Shown piece by piece: positions 1-13,815 of a stretch of 13,815 nt of DNA. The stretch spans positions 1-13,815 of the forward strand of contig NCSJ02000613.1 of NCBI GenBank assembly GCA_002812745.2, given 5' to 3'. This DNA comes from Scytalidium lignicola (lineage: Eukaryota > Ascomycota > Leotiomycetes). A program made the position numbers and the translations under genes. The notes below the pieces were generated by a model that was not told the origin of the DNA, did no database searches, and saw nothing but the letters and a program-made list of their open reading frames with translations. Position 1 is the stretch's first letter. Each line of letters starts with the position of its first letter.

Positions 1-49
1 GGAAACAGACACACCGGTAGATAACAACAACGAACAGCCTGTAGAAGGT

Positions 50-133
50 TCTGAAGAAGGCTCTGAGGAAGAATCTGAAGAGGGATCTGAGGAAGTATCT
101 GAGGAAAGTTCGGAAGATAGTTCTGAAGAAGAT
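50..133 (+). repeat. 12-bp coding minisatellite, seven units, encoding an acidic Ser-Glu-Glu tract
   Basis: A Ser codon (TCT, once TCG) recurs every 12 bases at 50, 62, 74, 86, 98, 110 and 122. Each is followed by two acidic codons and one variable codon, giving the pattern S-E-(E/D)-x repeated seven times in the N-terminal part of the Gag frame. There are no stops and almost no transition damage, unlike the rest of the element. It is probably a disordered acidic region; its role is unknown. If translation starts at the Met at 197, the tract lies in the leader. Confidence 0.8.
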
Positions 134-1141
134 CAAGGTGAGAGTCAGACTATCGAGGAAACTAACATCCAGGAGGGAGTGTTAGAAGAAGTTGTTATGC
201 CACCAAAGCAATCCACAAGGTCAACAGAAGGATCAACTGTTGGAGAATCGTCAAGAGCTTCGGGGAAGAAGCCAGCACCTCCATTACCTAAACCCAAGAC
301 AGAACCAGTTCAAGTACTAAGAGCTCTAAGCCCAGACCCTGATCCAGACTCAGAACCAGAAAACAATGCCGAACAAATTCCAATAACAACACCTAGAAAA
401 GTCAAAATCACCAGGCTAGACTTGTTCTATGAGGATAGAAAGAAGCTTAAAGCATATCTTGCTTAGACAAGAACTTATTTAGTATTAAATAATCACCTGT
501 TGCCTAAAGACACACATAAGGTTCTGTGAGCGTCAACGTATCTAAGAGAGGTAGCTAAGACATGGTTTCAACCCTTTAAAGATGAGTAGTTCACGATGAA
601 CAGAGGAACAACAAACTAAAAGGTGAAAAACATTATTAGAAGCTAGGAAAACTATACAGGTGAACTCAAACGCTTGTATGAGGATGTTGACAAGAAAAGG
701 AATGCCAAAAGACGCTTAGCTCACCTTAGACAAACCAAAAGCCCTAGTGAATATACAATGCTTTATCACTAGTATACAGTATCGGTCAATTAGGGAGAGG
801 AAGTGCATATACATCAGTTTAAGATTGGTCTGAAGGACTTGATCAAAGAGGAATTATATTAACAACCGGCTGTTAAAACACTGGATGCCCTTATTGACTT
901 GTCTATCAAGATCAGGAATGAACAATATAAGATGATCTTGGACAAGAAGGGTAAATCTTACTTCAACAAAAGAAAGACCAACAGAAGGAAAAATTAAGAG
1001 GACCCTATGGAGTTGAATGCCATAAAGAAAGCAAAGACCTTCAAAGGGAAAGGAAAGAAACACTTCGAAGGAAAAAGCAAGAAAGGAAATTCCTTCAGAA
1101 TTTCCCCTGAGGAACTTGACAAGAGAAGAAAAAACAAGTTA

Positions 1142-1183
1142 TACTTCAAGTGTAGACTTCCTGGACATATGGCCAACATCCAT
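1142..1183 (+). other. Gag zinc knuckle, CX2CX4HX4C spacing with three positions altered
   Basis: The stretch YFKCRLPGHMANIH matches the CX2CX4HX4C nucleocapsid knuckle in spacing. The first ligand is Tyr (TAC, one G-to-A step from TGC), the second Cys and the His are kept, and the usual Gly after the second Cys is Arg (AGA from GGA). The last ligand position is His (CAT), which one transition from a Cys codon cannot explain. It may be an ancestral CCHH variant or a double change. Confidence 0.75.
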
Positions 1184-1426
1184 AAGAAAAACAACAAGTC
1201 AAGTTTGTCAGTTAAAGTTAAGGCCATGAGAATTCTGAGAATTATGGACATTTCATCAGAGTCTTCAAAAGAGGAAAGCTTAGACGAGAGAAGGAACTCC
1301 TCGGAGGAAGAAGAGGAACGACCGAATTTGGTAACCATACTAGAAATCATTATTAAAACTAACGCAGATGAGATGGCAATAACAAGGATCCTGAAAACAG
1401 GTTTTGTACTAATGAAAAGGACTTAA

Positions 1427-2758
1427 CATAAAGGACATCCTTAGAATCAAGGAGAGGCTGTTAGCCCAAATAGATGAAGATTTATACTAGGAGTCAGTGG
1501 AATCTGGATGATCATGCTGGCGGAGTTTAAGGCTATACCAACAGAGTAGTATCCCGTTTTTGGAGAATTATTAGTCTTAAAATATTATCTCATGATTAAC
1601 ATAAGAGGGTTAAGAGGATAAGAGATCCTAGACAAGAACCAACTCTATAAAACTGTGTAGTAAGAAGAAGTGACTATCAAGGAACAAGAACTTAATCTTG
1701 AAGATCTTACTTTGGTTTATAAGACCAACTTACAGAGCATCGTTATAAAGAAAGGATCGTGCAAAATCCTCTTATCAGTAGAAAGGACTTAAATCCAAGA
1801 CGATTTCAATCAGATACCTGAGGATGCCTAGATGGTAATTGAAGAAGGGCTAAGCCATGTCATGTGAGGGTAATATAACATTTAACACAAAAGACTTCTG
1901 ATGATAACTTTCTGGCAAGACTGTTTGGAAGCAAAAACATAGCATGGAGAAATCTGAGGTTTAGGAAAGTCAGTAGAACAACTACTAGAAGCTGAACAAT
2001 ATTATGCCTAATAAGAACGAAAGGAACTGGTTAAGATTATTGTTGAACAAGCCAACTAGGATAAAGAAGCTTTGCCTATGGTTAATAAACTAGAAGAAGA
2101 TTCACTACCTTTGGAAGTACTGATTGTATTACCAGGAGAGGATAAACTATTACAAGAAATCAATAAACAGTTCAACTAAGAAGTAACAGTACACCCTTTG
2201 AATTCTGTAAAAAGAATTCCTATAATAAGTGATGTTTCTATTATTGAAATAAGGGAATATCTAGGAAATGAAATGGTAGAATGAGTACAAGATGTACACG
2301 CCTTCATAAACGATGGAAGCCTAGATGGACTAAGACTGCGAAATCTTAATGAAAGACAAGTAACACTATTTGAGGAACTTCAAGAAAACGCTGAAGATCT
2401 TGAAATTGAAGATGACATGTCAGTTGACAATGCTGAAAACATCAATCTTTATTCTATAAACAGTAAAAGTTCATTATATATTAATATAACACTATATGGA
2501 AAGCCAATAAGAGCCTTAATCAATTCAAGAGCTAAAAGGAACTTTATCAGTGAACAAGTCATAAAACAACTTGGACTTAACACAAAAGTCAAAGATAACA
2601 ACTATCTAATATCGTTAACAAACAATACCAAGGTTCAGAAGTATATCAACGTTCAAACTCAGAATTTAAATATAAGGTATAGTAAAAGCCACCAAGAAAA
2701 GATATCTTTTAATGTTACAAAGTTAAGAACATATCAGGTTATATTAAAAATCGAATAG
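1427..2758 (+). pseudogene. pol: Pol N-terminal region and aspartic protease of element A, broken
   Basis: From about 1680 the element frame reads as a linker with several Gln/Trp-type stops, including EQELNLEDLTLVYKTNLQS near 1682-1738 and KSVEQLLEAEQYYA near 1967-2008. It becomes continuous from 2285. The stretch 2417-2758 is the longest uninterrupted piece and holds the retroviral-type aspartic protease. The active-site motif expected as D-S-G-A appears as N-S-R-A within ALINSRAKRNFIS. The catalytic Asp is Asn (AAT at 2522) and the Gly is Arg (AGA at 2528), both single G-to-A changes, so the protease would be inactive. The stretch 1427-1680 has stops in all three frames, and its coding frame is unclear. 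Copy B at 6804-7157 is homologous to 2185-2550. Confidence 0.8.
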
Positions 2759-3720
2759 ATAAAAAAGCATAATCTAATAATTGATTGGAGAACAAGTATG
2801 ATTACCTTCCTAGAAGAAACTATATCTTTAGGAATTGTCCATGTTGACAAAACCATGAAATATATTCTTAAGGAATATTATAAATGACTAGAGTTATTCA
2901 TAGAAAGACCTGATGATTCAGCCTTACCTGAGCACAAACCATAGGATCATGAGATAAAGCTTAAAGAGGGGTTCAGACTAGCTTACAGACTAATTTATCA
3001 AACAACTCTCGTCGAGGATAAAGTAACGAAAAAATGATTGTTCAAGAAAATGATGCTTAGAAGTTTGTACAAAAAAGGTCATAACAAAACCAGAGCACTA
3101 CTGCATTATACAAAGAAAGGAGACAATCTGTTAGGACAACCTTGTGGTGACTACAGACACTTGAATAATAGAACTGAGAAAGACCAATACCCCTTACCGT
3201 TAATAAATTCAATGATAGACAAGCTGAAAGGAGTTGTCATATTCACTAAACTAAACCTATAATCAGCGTTTAATCTGGTTAAGATTAAAAGAGGTAACGA
3301 ATAAAAAGTTGTTATTCAAACAAAATACAGATTATTTAAGCTATTAGTTATAACATTTGATACGACAACTACTCCAACAACATAACAAAGAATAATAAAC
3401 CGAATATTAGAAAAATATTTAGAGAAATTCATAATGGTATATCTTGATGATATAATCATTTACTCAAAGAGTATTGAAGAATATAAAGAGTATGTTAAGC
3501 TTGTTTTAGAAGTGTTATAAGAGGTAAGATTATGTTACAAACTAGTAAAATGCAAATTCTATAAAGAACAAGTTCAATTCTTAGAATATTATATTTCTGA
3601 AGAAAGGATAAAAACCCTTGATAATAAGATTCAATTAATCAAGGAATGAGAAACACTTAAGATGGTTAAGTAATTACAAAGTTTTTTAAAGTTGGTTAAT
3701 TATTACCGAAGATTTGTAAA
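2759..3720 (+). pseudogene. pol: Reverse transcriptase domain of element A, broken
   Basis: This region holds the polymerase domain that copies element RNA into DNA. In the same frame as the protease one reads GDYRHLNNRTEKDQYPLPL (3146-3202) and then IFTKLNL, where the first catalytic Asp of the usual TKLDL motif is Asn (AAC at 3254). TAA replaces the following Gln, then SAFNLVKIK. The second catalytic motif YLDD is intact at 3440-3451 within MVYLDDIIIYSKSIEEY. The thumb-like block KCKFYKEQVQFLEYYISEE follows at about 3550-3605, then LQSFLKLVNYYRRFVKDYS. These are textbook Ty3/gypsy landmarks in the right order and spacing. Stops at 3259, 3302, 3385 and elsewhere, plus the lost first Asp, make it non-functional. 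Confidence 0.93.
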
Positions 3721-4254
3721 AGACTATTCTAAAATCTTCATGTCATTGACTGAACTTATAAAGAAGGATCAAGCTTATAAATAGAATAACATTGTGAAAG
3801 ATATATTTCAAAGTATCAAGGATGCCTTTGTAAAAGGAAATTTCTTAAGAATCTTCGACTTAAAGAGAGGAATAAGAATTAAAACTGATGCTTCTGATGT
3901 AGTATTAAAAGTAGTGTTATTATAATCATAGTAGATTAGTAAACAATACTACTAAGTATTATTAACATTTTGATTAAAGAAGTTAAACATTGTAAAAAGA
4001 AATTATTAGACATTGAATAAAGAAATGTTAACTATTATAAAAAGCTTTAAAGTATTAGAGAGTATATATTATTAAATCCAACAAAACAGTTGATATACTT
4101 TCGGATTATTATAACCTTTAATACTTCATAACAACTAAGCAGTTGAATGTTAAACAAGTATGATGAGCAAAGAAGCTATCCAAATATAATTTTAAGATTA
4201 TTTATGTTAAAGGTGAAGACAATAAAAAAAGTAAATGCTTTAAGTTAGAAACCT
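3721..4254 (+). pseudogene. pol: RNase H domain of element A, broken and frameshifted
   Basis: RNase H removes the RNA template during reverse transcription. The start is marked by IRIKTDASD (TDASD at 3884-3898), matching the gypsy motif around its first catalytic Asp, which is retained. KRNY-stop-TLNKEMLTIIKSFK follows near 3990-4050, matching the usual ERNY(E/Q)xxDKELLAI block. Between about 4080 and 4125 the coding frame shifts by +1. ITTKQLNVKQV and KKLSKYNFKIIYVKGEDN are then read at 4128-4220, corresponding to the family blocks TTKQLNRRQ and FKIIYRKGKEN. Tandem TGA codons in between are consistent with Trp. Confidence 0.85.
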
Positions 4255-5593
4255 AAGTACTTAGTTAAAGAGAAGGAGGAAAGTGAACTTATGTTAAAGG
4301 AAGATGAAAGTAGATTCTTAATGTATAATAAAGGACAATTTATAATTATTATAATAATAACAAACAAACATTAAGTTGATCAGATTAGTAAAGTAACTAA
4401 AAGGGAAAAAGAAGAAAATACTTTACTAGACATGATTAAAGGTAAGTAGGAGAAAATCGAAAACATTTAATATAAGAATAAGAAATTATATATACTAACA
4501 AGATTAGTAAAAGAGTTTATTAAGGAATAGTATAGTTTGTTATATAACAAACATATAAGAGTAACCTAATACTATTACCAAATCAATAAGGATTACTTTA
4601 TTATAAAATTACAGTTAATAGTTAAGAAAGTAATTGTAGAATGTGAAATTTGTAAGAAGACTAAGAATCTNAAAAAAGAAGCCTTAAGAATAATTATACT
4701 TTATACAAATACTTAATAATCTATAAGAATTAATCAAATAGGATTTTATTATGAAATTACTAGTTTCTACAGATTGTATAATAAAGGTTAAGTATAACTT
4801 TATCTTTATAATAATTGAACATCATATTAATTTTACAATATTTGAATTATTTAAGAAGACTTNAAAAAGCAGAAGAGATAACTAGTATATTCTTATAAAG
4901 AATAGTATCTTAATAAGGATTATCAAAACAAATAATCTTTGATAAAGATACTAAATTCACATCTAAGTTTTAGGAGATAATAATAACAAGAATAAAAAGT
5001 TAAAAAAGAAGTTATTAATAATATAACATCTACAAACTAACAGAAAAACAGAATGTTTAAACAGATAGTTAGAAGAATACCTAAAATGTTATGTTAACTA
5101 TAATCAAGATAATTAAGTTGATTACTTGTTAATAGTAGAAATAACATATAATAGTATATTATATGAATTAACTAAGATTATTCCATTCTATGCAAATTAT
5201 AAACAAGAACCAAAAAGGCTTTGTATTAGATTAGAACTAGAATTCACAAGCAAATCAATAAAGATTCATATAAAACAAATAGAAGAAATACAAGAAAAGA
5301 TCAAGAACTTATTTTAATATACTAAAGAAAGAATGAAAAAGTATTATAATTACAAATACTTAATAGANNTAACATANAAAAAAGNGNATAAAGTTTATCT
5401 TCTTAAAAAGAACATTAAAACAACAAAACTAAGTGATAAACTAAACTAGGTTAAGATAAGACTATATAAAATCAAAGAAGTTTATAAACTTTTAACATAT
5501 AAATTAAAACTATTAACAATAGTTAAGATACATTTTGTCTTTTATGTTTTACTTCTTAAATTAATACTTAAAAACATTTAAACATTAATGTTA
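4255..5593 (+). pseudogene. pol: Integrase of element A (zinc-binding, catalytic and C-terminal parts), broken
   Basis: Integrase inserts the DNA copy into the genome. The HHCC zinc-binding region is read at about 4530-4665: LLYNKHIRV, QINKDYFIIKL and ECEICKKTKN, with both Cys of the CX2C pair intact at 4642 and 4651. In another frame the catalytic core shows IFDKDTKFTSKF (Asp at 4941 and 4947), then HLQTNRKTE at 5027-5053, which is the damaged family motif HPQTDGQTE. ECLNR-stop-LEEYLKCYVNYNQDN follows, then an open piece at 5126-5317 containing IIPFYANYKQEP, the usual SPFYANYGYxP block. The C-terminal module reads KVYLLKKNIKT at 5390-5422 and IRLYKIKEV near 5456-5482. Two or more small indels separate these pieces. 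Confidence 0.87.
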
Positions 5594-5827
5594 GAAGAAG
5601 TCAATCTAGAAAGAGAATACAAAGTTAAGAAAATTATCAACTATAAGATGTATTATAAGAAATTATAATACTTGGTTAAATGAATAAGATATCCAGAAAA
5701 CAAGAATAAATAAGAACTTATGTTTAATCTTATAAGTTATAAGGAGTTATTAGAGGAATATCAACAAACTCATCTTAGAATAGATTTCTAAGCAATAGAA
5801 TTACAAGGTCAAAGAAGAAGAGGTTGA
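5594..5827 (+). pseudogene. pol: Chromodomain and C-terminus of element A Pol, broken
   Basis: Chromodomains bind modified histone tails and steer chromovirus integration to heterochromatin. The frame starts EEVNLEREYKVKKIINYK and continues YLVKxIRYPENKNK and SYKELLEEYQQTHLRIDF, the canonical chromodomain order with a terminal helix. The expected aromatic-cage Trp in LVKW is TGA here, but TGG in the inverted sister copy, so the change is directly visible. Likewise TAA at 5789 is CAG in the sister (complement of 11705-11707). The proposed C-terminus is GQRRRG with the stop at 5825-5827 (TGA; TAA in the sister). Confidence 0.9.
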
Positions 5828-5876
5828 CAATAAAGGAAAAAGCTATGCTTAAGTTAGTAGAATACAACTTTAAAAG

Positions 5877-6236
5877 TTATAAAGAATTCTGTTTCTCTTA
5901 CCTCTCTTTGCTCTCTTTAGCATTCAGTTCCTCCAAGGTTTTTAGACTATAACATATTATTTCCTCAACATACCTTTGAAGGAAAACCTATTGTTTATCT
6001 AAACAAACAAGGTAAGTAGTAACCTTTGCTAAGGCTTAAGAAGCTTAAGTCAAAGTAATAAAGGTCTTATACTCAGAAGAAAGGTATTTATCCTCATGTT
6101 TATATAACTCTTAAGAAAGTATATAAAGATACTTGTTATTACATTTGCAACTATTATAAACATACTCTTTATAACAATTGAAATCAAGAATTATCTTGTA
6201 TAATAATCCTTTTTGTTTATAATATATACAAGGCAT
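5877..6236 (-). pseudogene. Antisense small zinc-cluster (Zn2Cys6-spaced) gene in gypsy 3' region, copy 1, broken
   Basis: Read on the minus strand from ATG at 6236-6234 to TAA at 5879-5877, this is 119 codons plus stop with no frameshift. It has five internal stops (codons 42, 64, 67, 83, 113), all explicable as former Gln. The N-terminus begins MPCIYYKQKGLLY. Positions 3, 6, 13, 22, 25 and 32 are Cys, Tyr, Tyr, Tyr, Tyr, Cys. If the Tyr codons (TAT/TAC) are mutated TGT/TGC, the spacing is CX2CX6CX8CX2CX6C, that of fungal Zn(II)2Cys6 clusters. A charged, probably helical tail follows (LEELNAKESKER near the end). The gene converges on pol, whose stop is about 50 bp away. From memory, small MPCxxC proteins with such a tail are common in plant-associated ascomycetes, but I cannot confirm the family. 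Function unknown; DNA or nucleic-acid binding is only an inference. Confidence 0.7.
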
Positions 6237-6541
6237 TACTTTAATCCTAAGGTTTTGAATATAAATACTAAGACTTAATCTTTCTTAGTATTTCTTTAAT
6301 TATAACTGTTTTAATAAATTGTTATTGTTAGGACTTGAACGTTTTAATAGCATGTTAGAAAGAAAGAATAGATTAATGAATAATAAGATTGTTCATGATA
6401 ATAGTTAAGTATTAAAGTAATGTTAGTGCAAAAAGAAGGATAATGTTACAAGATTAACTGAATAAGCTAATTAGTATAAGCCTAAGGCTTAGTATATAAC
6501 AAGTATACATAAAGAACTTAACAATTAAGAGGTTACATAAC

Positions 6542-6630
6542 TTAGATCATAAGATCAGAATAATCTAATAATCTAGGAATTTAGATTAAAGGATTAAAGT
6601 AATCTAATAATCTAACTTTATTTTATTATT
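6542..6630. repeat. AT-rich counterpart of the GC island, with duplicated 14-mer
   Basis: The 14-mer AATCTAATAATCTA occurs at 6562-6575 and again at 6601-6614. The segment around 6600-6630 aligns with the reverse complement of the GC island in the inverted copy (10902-10966), with GGTCC-type words read here as AATCT-type words. It is therefore the heavily transition-mutated form of the same repeat-rich part of the terminal region. Confidence 0.6.
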
Positions 6631-6803
6631 TATATAAGTATACTATAAGAACATAAGAGTAAACTTCTTATGTTCAACTTAAATACATTATTAAACCTTA
6701 CCTTAACTTAGTTAACTACTAAAGTATACTTTATATTTACTACTCTTAATCATTTACTTTACCTTTGGTTATCTAGTAATTTAAATAGTATAATTTTGTA
6801 ACA

Positions 6804-7157
6804 AATAATATACTTTTTAAATTTTACAAAAAGAATTCTTAAAAAAAAGTAATATCTTTATTATTAAAATNAAAAAAACACTTTAGAAATGAAATAATAG
6901 AATAAGTATAAAATATATACACATTTATAAACGATAAATGCTTAAATAAACTAAGGTTNAAAAAATCTTAATAAAAGATAAATAATACTATTTGAAGAAC
7001 TTTAAGAAAATACTAAAGATCTNAAAAATCAAAGATAACATATCAGTTAATAATACTAGAAATGTCAATCTTTACTTTATAAACAATAAAAGTTCATTAT
7101 ATATAAATATAAAACTATATAAAGATATAAACATGAATTGTTAAAGGAATTTTATAA
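6804..7157 (+). mobile_element. pol: Fragment of a second gypsy copy (B), pol linker/protease region
   Basis: This segment is homologous to element A 2185-2550. Landmarks shared in order include the AAAAAGAATTC word, the block AATGAAAT, CATTTATAAACGAT against CTTCATAAACGAT, and AAAGTTCATTATATAT. Over 60 aligned bases (A 2261-2320, B 6882-6941) I count 16 differences. Thirteen are C-to-T or G-to-A in the direction of B, and three are transversions. Copy B is thus a much more heavily mutated relative. It lacks about 15 bases near 7125-7145, and recognisable similarity is lost near 7157. It starts exactly where the terminal region of A ends, as expected if A inserted into B. Confidence 0.8.
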
Positions 7158-7716
7158 AAAGTACTCTTTAAAGAAGATTATAAAAGAATAATTAAACCTT
7201 GATACTACACTAATATTAAAGCTTAATTCAATACTAATAATAAAGTTGTACTTAACATGTCAAATATACTTAGTTATAATATCACAAGTAAGACATAAGC
7301 ATAATGTAATTATAAGACATAACAATAGTATCATAAGTCTTAACTATTAACAAAAGAACTAACAATGTTAAAGTTATAGAGATAAGGAATACAACCAAAG
7401 AAAAGCAATAGAATAAGAGTTAAGCAATAACGAATATAAGGATTTATTATAATTCAACCAGTTAATTAAGGAGAAAAACACATATAAAGTACTTTAATTA
7501 ATAAAAAAAATTTTNATACCTCAAATTCAAACATAAAGTAATTACAAAACAATCTAACAATAATGATAACATACTAATTACTCGTAAAGACCTGNAAAAA
7601 AGCATTCATAGAAGTCATTTAACCTCAAGAGTATACATAAGCCTAAATAGTAACCCTCTTAACAATAATAATGTAGTCTGACAACAAGTATACAAAGAAC
7701 ACACAATAAAGAACCT
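7158..7716. other. Unassigned AT-rich segment between gypsy fragment B and LINE ORF1
   Basis: No frame is open for long and no conserved motif is convincing. Stretches rich in Lys, Asn, Gln and Leu with Gln-type stops can be read on the plus strand, so it may be the 5' leader or ORF1 N-terminus of the adjacent LINE, or unrecognised element sequence. Ambiguous bases occur at 7515 and 7594. Confidence 0.5.
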
Positions 7717-8530
7717 GTAGACTACTAGTAAAAAAAAGATTACAAAATCATTATATACACTTCAAGTATGTTATCAGAACTCAAGAACCATAACTTACAA
7801 GACATAATAACAATAATTAATACAGTTATATTCTTATAAGGTAATATACACATAATAAAGCAATTACTCAGCAATGACATAATAGTAATCTTCAAAGATA
7901 ACTAAAAAGAATAGTATTTGCTTAACATACAATGAGTTCAAAAGGTATTTGAAGAAGAAATATGAATTGTCAATAACAAAGTTATTATATATACCAAAAG
8001 TATATTTGATTACTTATTAACTGAATATAACAAAGTTTTAATCAAAGAAGTATTAGAAAAAGAGAATAAAATAACAATACTTTAAGTTAAAGCTTGTTAA
8101 GCTTACAAAGGAGGCTAATAACAGAAAAGTTACTTATATATCAAACTAACAATTACAAGAGATATATACAGATTTACAAACTAAAGTTTGTATTAAGAGG
8201 GTCAAGTATTCTACTATAAACTATTCAAGAACAAGTTATAGTCAAAACAATGTTTTAAATACTAGGCTTAGAGATATTACATACAGTATTATAAAACAAA
8301 GAAGTAATGTGCTTATTGTGTAAGAGTAATATATGAAGAAGAAGAAGAAGAATGTCCAACAAACNTAAGAGAAATTANACTTAAGTATTATAATTATAAC
8401 AAGGAATATACAATGTTTNATNANAGTTGTCTAATANNAAAGGANTANTANGATCAAGCAAAAGAAGTATATAAAAACAGAATAATAAAACTAGTTAAAC
8501 TAAATAACATAATTTATACTATAATTTAGC
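7717..8530 (+). pseudogene. ORF1 (Gag-like, zinc-knuckle protein) of a Tad1/I-like LINE, broken
   Basis: ORF1 proteins of fungal non-LTR retrotransposons bind the element RNA. In one frame, through many Gln/Trp-type stops, the sequence reads LLSNDIIVIFKDN, VFEEEI, NKVLIKEVLEKENKITIL and VFYYKLFKNKL, an order I associate with Tad1/I-clade ORF1. Three knuckles follow. Knuckle 1: ligand codons at 8251 (Cys), 8260 (Tyr), 8275 (Tyr), 8290 (Tyr), spacing CX2CX4HX4C. Knuckle 2: CAYC at 8308-8319, Tyr for His at 8332 and Cys at 8353 after a run of six Glu. Knuckle 3: 8386 (Tyr), 8395 (Tyr), 8407 (Tyr), 8428 (Cys), spacing CX2CX3HX6C. All replacements are one transition from Cys or His. The N-terminus is not defined. 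Confidence 0.8.
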
Positions 8531-8859
8531 TTAATACAATTAAGTTAATAAAAAGTAATAAAGAAGAAANGATAATAAATAATATTTAAAAAGAAGAAAC
8601 TTAGAACTTAAGTAAACTCATAAAGTAAACTTACAAGTCTAAGTATTACAAGAAGAATAAATAAAAATACTTTAAACAAATTTTCAAGTTAATGTAATAA
8701 CTTTATGTTTAATTAATTATTACTTAACTTATTATCAAGCTTTATAACTAACCAAAGTAATAAAAATCTAATAAATTAATAATAACGGACTAACTAACAA
8801 AGTAGTATAATAATAAACATAATTATAGTATAACTATGATTATAATCTTATATTAAAAC
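8531..8859. other. AT-rich gap between LINE ORF1 and ORF2 endonuclease
   Basis: It presumably holds the ORF1 C-terminus and the ORF2 N-terminus, but I see no motif I would defend. One ambiguous base is present near 8570. Confidence 0.4.
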
Positions 8860-10722
8860 CAAAATAGAAGATATAAATACATAATAAAAGTACTAAAGAA
8901 TAATAATGAGTATAATATGTTAATAGTCTAAGAACTATGAAATAAACAAACAGATTAAAGATATATACTATTTAAATAATAAGAATTACTAAAGAATATG
9001 AAGTAATAAAANGAGTAATTATATATATATACAAATGCTATGAATTAATTATATGATTGTATAAAGTAGAAGAGAACTAGGTAAAAGTAGTATTTATAAT
9101 TAAAAACATAATAGTTTACTTAATATACTTAACTAAATATATAACCTTAAATAACATATACTTATTTATAATCTTGTTATAGTAAAACTAGAAAGTTATA
9201 TAGTATTAACAAATAATTTTAATTAACATTACTTAATATAAGATAAAGAAGAAAGAATAAGTAATAAAGTTAATAAATTGTTAATGTTAGTATAATAATA
9301 AAAGCTTAAACTTGTTATACCTTAAGAAGAACTTATATAAAGATAAGATAACAACAAGAACTTAATTATTAATTATGCTTAGTATATAATAGATCTCTGA
9401 ATTTAATATATAAAAGTTGAAGATTAGACTAGCTTAAATTATACCTTATAATTTATTAAAATCAAACTTGAAGTAAGTAGATAATAAATATATAATAAAG
9501 AACTAAGTTATAATTAAAGATTAATAAACTATAAAAAAGTTAAAGTAATAATAGTTAGCTTATTACTCTTCTTAAACTATATATTTACTAAGGAGTAATT
9601 AGACAAAGTAATTGATATATTAACAAAATAATTGATTGATATTATAAATAAGACAATACTTAGAAGAAAGTTATTAGTTAACTACTTAATATTATAATGG
9701 AATTATACAATTAAGAAAGTAATTAAGGTTTCTTGGAAAGTAGAGTATTAATAATGTACAAATAAGTCTTTACAAAATCATTAAAACTTAGATTAAGCTT
9801 TTAAGGAATAAAAGAAAAGAATTACCTAAGCTTAAACAAAAAGTTAATAACAAGTAATAATAATAATAACAAAGGATACTTATAAGTTGTAAACGTTTGA
9901 ACAATAAGCATGAATATATAGTTATACATCTACTAACTTGTTAAAGATCTTAAAGTTATATAATAATAACCTAAAAAGACTATTAGTATATACATACAAT
10001 AAGAAAGTAATAATACTTATAATTAAGTTTTTCTTAAAAGTATAAGTAGATTATATTAGATTACAAGACATAAATCAAGTAAAAGTGATTAAGATAAATA
10101 AAGGTTATGATAAAGTAATTATTATACAAGTACTTTACAAGGTTAGAGTATAGAAGGCATTAAGGCTAGATTGATTAACTAATGAGTTTCTACAAGCTTG
10201 TAATTAACTATTATGATGAATTTTAATAGTCTTAATTGAAATAAGCTTTAAACTAGAACACTTTCCTTATANTTATTATATANTGAATNTAATAATANTN
10301 TGNAAANTAAGNAAGATAATANAATAATTATAANAAGTTAAAAGATAANNNTTAATNATATTACTTANTTATATAANAAAAGTATTTGAAGTTATAATAN
10401 TTATTTATATTATAAAAGTAANAAAGAAGTAAGGATTACTCTTAAAAGGANANATAGNAAATAAANATANNAAATTTACAAAATTAACAATAAGGATAAT
10501 AACAAACATTATTTATATAATATAAAGTTAAAGCATTATTACATTACTATTACAACTTAATCTTAAAAGAACATTTAACATAGTAAATTATAAATGGTTA
10601 TAATATATACTCTAAAAGAAAAACTTCTTATAATGATTAATAAGTTAGATTAATAATTACTTAACAAATAAGATTATTTGTTTATCCTTTAACAATAAAA
10701 CAACTTAGCTAATCTTAATAAA
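8860..10722 (+). pseudogene. ORF2 (APE endonuclease plus reverse transcriptase) of the LINE, broken and 3' truncated
   Basis: ORF2 nicks target DNA and copies element RNA at the nick. The endonuclease reads EYNMLIVxEL in one frame at 8911-8937; the catalytic Glu codon is 8932, and the family form is DILxxQEPW. After a frame change it reads NNFN-stop-HYLI near 9212-9235, VNKLLMLV and KLKLVIP, LIINYA near 9375, and TSLNYTL at 9428-9448, where the usual SDH triad is Leu-Asn-Tyr, each one transition away. The reverse transcriptase shows LTNEFLQACN and ISFKLEHFPY at about 10169-10271. LNLKRTFN follows at 10556-10579, with the catalytic Asp now Asn (AAT at 10559), then YLTNKIICLSFNNKTT at about 10650-10702. 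Sequence stops matching at 10723, before the YADD motif, where the inverted gypsy repeat starts. The interval 9490-10130 carries no clear motif. Confidence 0.82.
10262..10480. other. Cluster of ambiguous bases inside the LINE reverse transcriptase
   Basis: About thirty N positions fall in roughly 200 bases, far denser than elsewhere. They coincide with the early reverse transcriptase region, which is usually the best conserved part of such elements. A likely cause is an assembly consensus of several slightly different copies. Confidence 0.7.
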
Positions 10723-10901
10723 TGTTATAAAACTACACTATCCAGGTCACTAGATAGCTAAGGATAAGGTAAATGTTCAAGGACAATAAAAACATGTAAT
10801 ATAAGCAACTAAACTAAAGATAAGATCTAGTAATGTATTTAAGTTAAACACAAGAAGTCTACTCTCATGTTTTTATAATATGCTTATATAGATAATGAAA
10901 T

Positions 10902-10966
10902 CCAGTTGGACCCCCTGGACCTCCTAGGTCCCCCAAGTCCATAAACCCCTTGGACCCCCTAAGTCC
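10902..10966. repeat. GC-rich island of short GGACCCCC-type repeats
   Basis: This C/G-rich patch in very AT-rich surroundings is built from variants of an approximately 18-base unit containing GGACCCCCT or GGTCCCCCA followed by AGTCC. A perfect inverted repeat GGACCT-CCT-AGGTCC lies at 10917-10931. It sits inside the terminal region about 310 bases upstream of the zinc-cluster ATG. It contains few CpA dinucleotides, the preferred RIP target, which may explain its survival. It could be a regulatory array or simply a tandem repeat in the LTR. Confidence 0.75.
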
Positions 10967-11121
10967 TTTAAGTCTTAATCCTATTATATGATTGTTAGGT
11001 TCTCTATATACATTCTACTATATACTAAGCCTCAGGCCTACACCAATCACTATGTTATAATAAAACCTATAACATTATCCTCTTTTGTACTTAATGTTAT
11101 TCTAACACTAAAATATCATCT

Positions 11122-11274: not shown

Positions 11275-11619
11275 ATGTCTTCTTATAACTTTTACATCTA
11301 AAATAATTTAATCTGTTTGATGGTTTCTGAATCCAATTATTATAACAAGTATACTTGTCAAAAGCACAAATATAAGAGTAAAGGTATTCTTATAACCTCT
11401 TAAGAAACCCTTAATAAGGAAGAGGCTTGTCTTAAGGCTAAGGAGAAGAAGGTTGCTTAGGCTATAGCTAAGAATACAGCTTGTCTAACTTATCTTCACA
11501 AATAAAAGAAGTTCTTTTACAAACATACTAGTAAAATGATCTATTATAAGCTTTTTTCTTTAGACAAGTTAAACATTGTAAAAGAGAAAAAGAGATAAGA
11601 GAAACAGAATTCCTTATAA
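11275..11619 (+). pseudogene. Antisense small zinc-cluster (Zn2Cys6-spaced) gene, copy 2, broken
   Basis: This is the sister of the minus-strand gene at 5877-6236. ATG at 11275 to TAA at 11617 gives 114 codons plus stop without frameshift, with five internal TAA/TAG codons consistent with Gln. Codons 4, 7, 14, 23, 26 and 33 are Tyr, Tyr, Cys, Tyr, Tyr, Tyr. Their spacing is exactly CX2CX6CX8CX2CX6C, identical to copy 1 although the retained Cys differ. The tail reads EEACLKAKEKKVA, KNTACLTYLHK, KLFSLDKLNIVKEKKR and ends EKQNSL, as in copy 1 (EKQNSL). It probably forms a coiled coil. The gene again converges on the gypsy chromodomain. The two copies differ at many non-RIP positions, so they were distinct family members before decay. 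Role unknown. Confidence 0.72.
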
Positions 11620-11668
11620 CTCTTAAAGTCATATTCTATTAACTTAAGTATAACTTCTTCTTTTATTG

Positions 11669-12108
11669 TTAACCCTTTCTTCTTTAACCTTATGATTTCA
11701 TTGCCTGGAAATCTATTCTAAGATAAGTTTAGTAATATACTTTTAATAACTCCTTATAACTTGTAAGGTTAAAGGTAAGTTCTTATTTATTCTTACNTTT
11801 TTAAATATCTTATCCATTTAACTAAGTATTACAATTTCTTATAATACATCTTATAACTGATGATTTTCTTAACTTTGTATTCCTTTTCTAGATTAACTTC
11901 TTCTAACATTAAAGTTTAAGCATTTTCAAATGCTAATTTAAGAAATAATATATNAAAAAACAAAATATATCTTAATTATTATTAATAATTTTAATTTATA
12001 TGTTAAAGATTTATAAACTTCTTTGATTTCATATAATCTTATCTTTATTTAATCTAGTTTATTACTTAGTCTTATTATTTTAATGTTTTTTCTAAGAAGT
12101 ATAAAAAC
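11669..12108 (-). pseudogene. pol: Inverted copy of gypsy integrase C-terminus and chromodomain, fragment
   Basis: The reverse complement matches element A 5393-5827. It reads NLEKEYKVKKIISYKMYYKKL, then YLVKWIRY with the chromodomain Trp codon TGG intact, and IDFQA with the Gln codon CAG intact (complement 11705-11707). Both are stops in element A. An indel near 11795-11800, next to an ambiguous base, shifts the frame. The pol stop is TAA at the position equivalent to 5825. Homology ends near 12108, so the rest of pol is missing or unrecognisable. Confidence 0.85.
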
Positions 12109-13377: not shown

Positions 13378-13481
13378 TAGACTGGCTGATCGGTCCAGAC
13401 CGGACCAGACCGTGGGTTTTGTGGGGACCGTGCTCAGACCGTAGACCGTACGAAAATTTTGAGACCAGACTGTGAGACTAG

Positions 13482-13513
13482 AGTCTGGTCTGGCTTAAAA
13501 AATGGGGACCGTA
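13482..13513 (+). repeat. Internal direct repeat of the MITE, left copy
   Basis: This 32-base segment, containing GGCTTAAAAAATGGGGACCG, recurs at 13644-13675, 162 bases downstream, with three differences. Two are C/T changes and one is at the final base. Confidence 0.85.
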
Positions 13514-13643
13514 TATTAATGTCAGACTGTACTCAGACCGTGCTCAGACCATGTAGTCTAAAATGTTACTATATTTAGTATATTTTTGCCTTATTTAAGT
13601 AATATTAGCGAATTACGGTCTCGCTTCATTTAAATCAGACCGT

Positions 13644-13675
13644 AGTCCGGTCTGGCTCAAAAAATGGGGACCGTT
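13644..13675 (+). repeat. Internal direct repeat of the MITE, right copy
   Basis: Partner of 13482-13513, with GGCTCAAAAAATGGGGACCG in the same orientation. It suggests an internal tandem duplication or a composite origin of the element. Confidence 0.85.
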
Positions 13676-13770
13676 CTACGGTCTCGCTTAATTTTTTGCG
13701 GACGAGACCGTGTGGCTTACGGTCTCGTCCGGACCAGACCACGGTCTAATGCAACGGTCCGGCCAGTCTA

Positions 13771-13778
13771 ACAATAAT
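13771..13778. repeat. Right 8-bp target site duplication (ACAATAAT)
   Basis: Exact match to 13370-13377, directly after the right terminal inverted repeat, followed by an AAT-rich simple stretch to the window end. Confidence 0.6.
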
Positions 13779-13815
13779 AATAATAATCATAATAACTTTA
13801 ATAATAGTAATCGTA

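Follow-up and report, generated by a model that had tools for sequence, protein, structure and literature searches.

Organization of the locus

The window, i.e., the whole stretch of 13,815 nucleotides that was analyzed (contig C570 of the Scytalidium lignicola assembly), contains two oppositely oriented elements of one chromodomain gypsy family, each carrying an additional gene antisense to pol. Further copies were searched for in the genome (46.85 Mb, 664 contigs). The features of the window are as follows.

1-6803, forward strand: element 1 (gene type A), a RIPped chromodomain gypsy element whose 5' LTR lies beyond the contig end; delimited by end-to-end alignment with locus L070
530-835, forward strand: gag (Retrotrans_gag, Pfam PF03732, E 8.9e-5, just below the cut-off)
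2471-2785, forward strand: aspartyl protease (Pfam PF09668, E 2.9e-4, below the cut-off)
3131-3586, forward strand: reverse transcriptase (Pfam PF00078, E 1.4e-16)
3803-4066, forward strand: RNase H (Pfam PF17919, E 2.1e-9)
4501-4668, forward strand: integrase zinc-binding domain (Pfam PF17921, E 2.8e-4, below the cut-off)
5394-5870, forward strand: pol C-terminus with the SH3-like and chromodomain region (SH3_Tf2-1, E 0.0029, below the cut-off), near-identical across gene types
5877-6236, reverse strand: antisense gene, type A, with Cys6 N-terminus, linker and predicted helical part; the frame goes on to about 5775
6421-6803, forward strand: 3' LTR of element 1 (from the LTR pair of L070; ends judged by eye)
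about 6532-6653, forward strand: hypervariable U3 block of element 1 (from the between-type profile; the half-site scan found zero exact half-sites left)
6804-7123, forward strand: part of a further copy of this gypsy, adjoining the 3' LTR of element 1 (matches L070 4392-4707 and window 2197-2497)
10710-11075, reverse strand: 3' LTR of element 2, type B (aligned to the LTRs of L070-L072)
10858-10979, reverse strand: hypervariable U3 block of element 2, with half-sites GGACC at 10908, GGACC at 10917, GGTCC at 10927 and GGACC at 10952
11275-11721, forward strand: antisense gene, type B, given as far as codon 149, the first near-invariant stop
11580-12105, reverse strand: C-terminal end of pol in element 2, which matches window 5394-5917 in inverted orientation (84%) and shares a tail-to-tail overlap with the antisense gene

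Positions 3-6713 of the window align to L070 2204-8927 at 77% identity, and L070 has both LTRs, the 3' one being cut by the end of the stretch analyzed there. In L070, L071 and L072, whose LTR pairs lie about 6.8 kb apart, the antisense gene separates the end of pol from the 3' LTR; in element 1 the type A gene starts 185 bp from the 3' LTR, the LTR end being judged by eye. The order of reverse transcriptase, RNase H and integrase, together with a C-terminal chromodomain, identifies the family as a chromovirus. The chromodomain is assigned via the sibling copy L017, the one in which Pfam Chromo scored above the cut-off (E 4.7e-8); the window copy itself gave no match to this profile.

Two other parts of the window deserve mention. 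Positions 7480-10500 are very AT-rich, have zero Pfam matches in any frame and probably represent older, heavily RIPped repeats. Positions 13380-13780 form a GC-rich block with GACC/GGTC-type inverted repeats amid very AT-rich DNA; it holds seven GGACC/GGTCC sites, yet looks unrelated to the LTR.

The antisense gene

The earlier note had described two antisense copies (complement 5877-6236 and 11275-11619), and their coordinates, strands and frames were all found to be correct. Each copy is a single frame with six stops of RIP type, the last codon counted. The absence of frameshifts was also borne out: of the 29 other B loci read, 28 align with copy B without an indel, the exception being L003, which is 1 nt longer, and copy A, one codon shorter than the other A loci, keeps its frame. 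The last codon of the open reading frames as originally given is CAA or a RIPped TAA, and therefore the frame extends about 34 codons more. It stops at codon 149 in type B (25/27 copies) and at codon 155 in type A (13/17 copies); this comparison and that of the opposite frame used 27 of 31 B and 17 of 29 A copies. The stop at codon 149/155 could itself perhaps be a RIPped TGG, in which case the true end would lie about 15 codons beyond. The antisense gene and pol overlap tail to tail.

The pattern CX2CX6CX8-9CX2CX6C is present in all seven gene types (A-G, see below). As had been claimed, both window copies have C or Y at each of the six positions, and every Tyr is one RIP-type transition away from Cys, the C/Y positions being encoded only as TGY or TAY. 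DNA similarity by itself identified 59 loci (29 A, 30 B), and in these C or Y fills 346 of 354 motif positions; the eight exceptions all fall in L032 and L041, both of which are frameshifted upstream. Another 23 loci fit the pattern but were located by it, so that they are C or Y by construction; none was dropped. The start codon is ATG in 50 and ATA in 32 of the 82 loci, which is likewise partly by construction for the 23 pattern-located ones. Chance spacing of cysteines was rejected: in the six-frame translation of the window and L070-L072 (81,620 codons), the pattern combined with an ATG or ATA start was matched five times, always at a cassette.

Occurrence in the genome and gene types

The final 467 bp of pol, used as query, yielded 287 candidates, of which the best 40, ranked by likeness to the window copy, were scored. 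All of these best 40 carry the antisense gene, which belongs to type A in 7, B in 11, C in 9, D in 6, E in 6 and F in 1. Seventeen of the 40 coincide with listed A or B genes; the gene itself was read in 15 of them, and two (C536:2070 and C462:15149) rest on DNA match. The other 23 all have a Cys6 antisense gene (23/23). Since the gene lies within the LTR pair of full-length copies and all 40 pol-3' matches listed carry it, it belongs to the element, as the earlier note had proposed; members without the gene, named there beforehand as the case against this view, were absent from the best 40 of the 287 candidates.

A seventh type, G, was read at 3 loci. Genome searches with the individual types gave 18 matches for E and at least 40 for each of the types A (some of them short), B, C and D. 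The type F search gave nine matches, consisting of four at 78-100% identity, three of type G and two short ones. Two type A genes, L037 and L038 (C41:30445-30847 and 31856-32259), lie 1.4 kb from each other, share their indels and have identical translations, and represent a local duplication or an assembly repeat; L038, its translation being identical to that of L037, was left out of the gene counts. The two genes of the window, regarded at the outset as two copies of one gene, are indeed antisense copies in one gypsy family, but they are different alleles, A and B. The initial picture of one antisense gene was real as far as it went, and it omitted the many types, their recombinational exchange and the co-varying U3.

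Coding selection before decay

Transversions, which RIP does not cause, were the chosen measure of divergence between types, and 68 of the 82 copies entered the codon-position analyses, with 14 frameshifted or truncated copies left out. In a frame-blind nucleotide alignment, mean between-type transversions are 0.21 at the first, 0.14 at the second and 0.30 at the third codon position, and every one of the 15 type pairs shows the order 3>1>2. When codons were aligned instead, this order held for 14/15 pairs, the exception being D-F. The lower rate at position 2 than at 1, and at 1 than at 3, in all pairs of the frame-blind alignment indicates that the antisense frame coded for a selected protein, so the suggestion that the gene was under selection before its decay holds at the protein level.

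Two explanations that dispense with a functional protein bear on this result. According to the first, the reading frame would be a chance product or a mirror-frame artifact of pol, or an unrelated insert spread by segmental duplication. The pol frame does stay open opposite the antisense gene, apart from stops at RIP-prone codons, which speaks for such an artifact. However, variation in the antisense codon peaks at the nucleotide that is position 2 of the sense frame, on which ground the mirror-frame origin was rejected; the five pattern matches in the six-frame translation are all cassettes; and seven types occur across many separate insertions. This explanation is refuted in the main and hardly credible. 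The second holds that the antisense RNA alone matters, through dsRNA and silencing, with the reading frame as a by-product. Retrotransposon antisense transcripts can feed silencing, according to the accessible part of a review (PMC7264820), but the codon-position signature in 15/15 type pairs and the conserved Cys pattern and ATG site speak for a protein, which leaves the RNA explanation very improbable.

A hypervariable gene on a uniform backbone

Within gene types, the gene shows about 0.20 transitions and 0.002-0.011 transversions per site. This transition excess among copies is as expected of RIP, which was probably its cause. Genes of different types are 0.13-0.29 transversions per site apart, and RIP was rejected as the source of the type differences on account of these transversions. 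The pol end differs between types by about 0.006 transversions (medians averaged over type pairs), a value about equal to that found within types C-E (0.003-0.009). Where type A is one of the pair, mean pol-end values are raised by odd copies (up to 0.041; A-A 0.056). Medians for the pol end, LTR and U3, as well as the distance correlation given below, are based on the same 68 of 82 copies minus L056 and L011.

Four long copies were compared along their length. They differ by 0-3.4% transversions from the reverse transcriptase to the integrase zinc domain, by up to 9% in patches of the gag-protease region that do not track type, and by 11-21% between types in the cassette. For types C-F, the pol end was the sole part of the backbone compared. 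Change in place can hardly account for so divergent a gene next to a near-identical pol, and therefore old alleles appear to have been moved by recombination, most simply by template switching.

Other signs of exchange were seen elsewhere. In the gag-protease patches with up to 9% transversions among the window copy and L070-L072, window positions 1215-1514 of the type A element are closer to L071 (type B) than to L070 (type A), a pattern that may be taken as a sign of recombination among copies. L134 and L135 combine an E-type upstream region with a B gene, and are either recombinants or carriers of a minor B upstream variant.

The U3 block and its half-site arrays

A second hypervariable segment lies in the U3 part of the LTR, at -417 to -296 from the gene start, with 0.125 between-type transversions compared with 0.014 in the outer LTR (both as medians averaged over type pairs). 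When 79 copies were clustered by this block, the clusters comprised 27 A copies; 35 B and E copies together with one A copy; 7 C; 6 D; and 1 F, with two aberrant copies, L056 and L011. The U3 cluster matches the gene type in 76 of the 79 copies, B and E being counted as one shared cluster, as they have one U3 variant in common and different genes. The intervening segment (-232 to -112) is mosaic and does not track type, B being split 22 to 8.

Short half-sites recur in these blocks: GGACC/GGTCC in types B, C and E, GGATC/GATCC in A and F, and GGAGTCC in D. The motifs were picked after inspection of the blocks, and L056 and L011 were omitted from the half-site and repeat analyses. GGACC occurs 44 times and GGATC 0 times in the B blocks (29 copies), versus 0 and 12 times, respectively, in the A blocks (28 copies). 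The possibility that GGATC is merely a RIP product of GGACC was rejected, as GGACC is absent from all 28 A copies and occurs 44 times in the 29 B copies. The D blocks (6 copies) contain GGAGTCC 8 times and also 12 GGATC/GATCC sites, and the C blocks have a few GGATC/GATCC besides GGACC/GGTCC.

Repeat content exceeded that of more than 95% of dinucleotide shuffles in 20/29 B, 4/7 C, 4/6 D, 5/6 E and 1/1 F blocks, i.e., in 34 of 49 B-F copies, compared with 0 to 8 of 49 when five other regions of these copies were examined. The arrays of type A are weak: 5 of 28 copies beat the shuffles, the same number as in the outer LTR of this type (5/28). Half-sites of the same direction are spaced 9 bp apart in B, E and D, and 8 bp apart in A (with a relaxed motif), C and F; C also has a spacing of 7 bp. 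In better-kept copies, pairs are followed by pairs in the opposite direction, the best E copy reading >><<>><<>><<; in most copies sites have been lost and the order is irregular. The type B copy of the window retains four sites at 10908-10956, and its type A copy none.

Genome-wide, the B/E array pattern gave 145 matches versus 1 for the reversed control (both strands, overlaps included), and the A/F pattern 47 versus 0. The matches listed include 47 B/E-type array loci, of which 20 are no more than 900 bp away from a listed cassette, LTR or upstream region, 10 lie about one element length from such a feature and 17 could not be tied to one. For the A/F type, 3 of the 17 loci among the matches listed are near such features, 2 are about one element length off and 12 are unplaced.

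It is possible, although unlikely in our view, that the gene acts elsewhere (in integration targeting, in an RNA or particle function, or in host defense) and that the U3 arrays are independent repeats travelling along with it. Gene and U3 block are only 300-420 bp apart; each type represents one or few lineages, so their linkage may reflect descent and not function; and B and E combine a common U3 with different genes. Over six types, gene distance and U3 distance are not significantly correlated (r 0.35, permutation p 0.10), nor are gene distance and the upstream segment -111 to -5, for which r is higher (r 0.66, p 0.15). Against independent repeats, the mosaic segment lying between gene and U3 tracks type less well than the U3 block does, and the half-sites of better-kept copies have an ordered orientation and recurrent spacing. 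With the correlation weak and one block shared by B and E, a functional pairing of gene type and U3 block is suggested, not proven.

The predicted protein

A long helix at residues 43-91 was predicted by AlphaFold2 for a native B copy without inner stops, L018, aligned with 13 relatives. Mean confidence per 10-residue block is 94-98 over residues 51-90 of this model, which has a second helix too and an undefined Cys region. The helix follows the linker, as it would in a Zn(II)2Cys6 protein, and may form a coiled-coil dimer. The N-terminus of L077, in which the six cysteines are intact, was modelled separately (43 residues) as helix-strand-helix-strand with low confidence (pLDDT 62.5); this predicted repeat recalls the two-part structure of a Zn2Cys6 cluster.

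Zn(II)2Cys6 clusters have the spacing CX2CX6CX5-12CX2CX6-8C, into which the antisense genes fall. The zinc-cluster identity put forward in the earlier note agrees with the data in this respect, and found no support from profiles or folds. The HMM check that it had recommended gave no match to Pfam Zn_clus up to E 10, even for L077 with its six cysteines, the power of this search being lowered by RIP damage and by the HMMER filters. The model of the L077 N-terminus had no match in a PDB fold search, and a PDB sequence search returned nothing meaningful (best E 0.14, unrelated proteins). For want of a Zn_clus match and of PDB support for the fold, the protein is called zinc-cluster-like here and is not filed in the Zn(II)2Cys6 family.

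Proposed role of the antisense gene

With middling confidence, we propose that the antisense gene encodes a zinc-cluster-like coiled-coil regulator of the element's own U3, most likely a repressor, giving rise to immunity-like types. The gene would be a normal part of this chromovirus and its product a small putative DNA-binding regulator, built of a Cys6 N-terminus with Zn(II)2Cys6 spacing that may bind zinc, a short linker and a long, probably dimerizing helix. Transcription would proceed antisense from the 3' LTR side, against gag-pol. U3 is present in both LTRs of LTR elements after reverse transcription; dimers might bind the paired half-site array in the U3 of the same element, each type presumably recognizing its own LTRs. 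The likeliest effect would be to limit the element's own transcription, as a phage immunity repressor does. A recombinant with a new gene and U3 array could escape repression by the resident copies, and this advantage may keep many old alleles circulating on one near-uniform gag-pol backbone. The self-regulatory role that the earlier note had ventured fits the U3 arrays found, although we infer both the binding and its sign.

The opposite sign has to be considered. The same protein could be a self-specific activator that binds its own U3 and switches the element on in a Tat-like manner, with the types diversified against exploitation by non-autonomous copies. The anatomy and the array data fit this equally well, and fungal Zn2Cys6 proteins are mostly activators. 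It explains the coexistence of many types on one backbone less well than escape from repression does, and appears rather unlikely on balance, if somewhat less so than independent arrays. A repressor is preferred because repression accounts for the persistence of many types on one backbone.

If the repressor model is correct, retrotransposons would have immunity types in the full sense, each composed of an exchangeable antisense regulator and a matching U3 operator array, with each type controlling its own kind and new recombinants escaping. We advance this generalization tentatively, as more doubtful than the regulatory role itself. It would explain how retrotransposon families diversify and how they coexist in one genome, and would supply diverse zinc-cluster-like proteins of natural origin along with candidate target sites.

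Comparison with known systems

Extra antisense genes at the 3' end of pol, ahead of the 3' LTR, have been described from plants and from the Boty elements of Botrytis and Sclerotinia, as stated in the accessible part of a 2020 review, according to which their function is unknown and a regulatory role has been proposed (PMC7264820). The antisense gene of Boty-like gypsy elements is brtn (Zhao et al., 2011, as cited in PMC7264820 and PMC8365987), named without a function in the available portions of PMC8365987, PMC4227169 and PMC5987419. The genes described here have in common with brtn that they are extra antisense genes of a fungal chromodomain gypsy and are placed between pol and the 3' LTR (PMC7264820, PMC4227169). 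The likeness concerns the position of the gene; the zinc-cluster spacing, allelic types and U3 arrays are absent from the descriptions of brtn as far as these are available. Likewise, the aORF-3R genes of plants (gene23 of Grande, and those of RIRE2, Retand and PvRetro13) are described, in the parts of the sources available, without Cys6, allelic modules or matching LTR arrays.

The antisense arrangement itself is therefore already known from brtn of Boty, whereas the Cys6 pattern, the allelic types and the type-specific U3 arrays did not come up in the accessible literature, which excludes most subscription journals. The alleles with their matching U3 arrays suggest a concrete function for such a gene, i.e., self-specific regulation of the LTR.

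Outside retrotransposons of this kind, three systems offer parallels. First, Gal4-like Zn(II)2Cys6 factors consist of a Cys cluster, a linker and a dimerizing helix, and bind paired CGG half-sites. The antisense proteins share with them the Cys spacing, the linker followed by a predicted helix and the paired half-sites; they differ in being unmatched by Pfam, in having half-sites GGACC or GGATC instead of CGG, and in having no long activation domain. Second, HBZ of HTLV-1 is an antisense DNA-binding regulator of the bZIP class that is expressed from the 3' LTR side and acts on its own LTR, as is proposed here for the product of the antisense gene. To our knowledge, HBZ, in contrast to the present family with its allelic types and matching LTR arrays, has no allelic type set with matching LTR operators. 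Finally, in the immunity regions of lambdoid phages, a regulator gene and the operators belonging to it form a variable module, the rest of the genome being exchangeable. The variation of regulator and cis sites as a module is what we propose for this family, although here the carrier is a retrotransposon, the protein is zinc-cluster-like and repression is the presumed mode of action. If the proposal is correct, the types of this chromovirus would correspond to phage immunity regions and to plasmid incompatibility groups.
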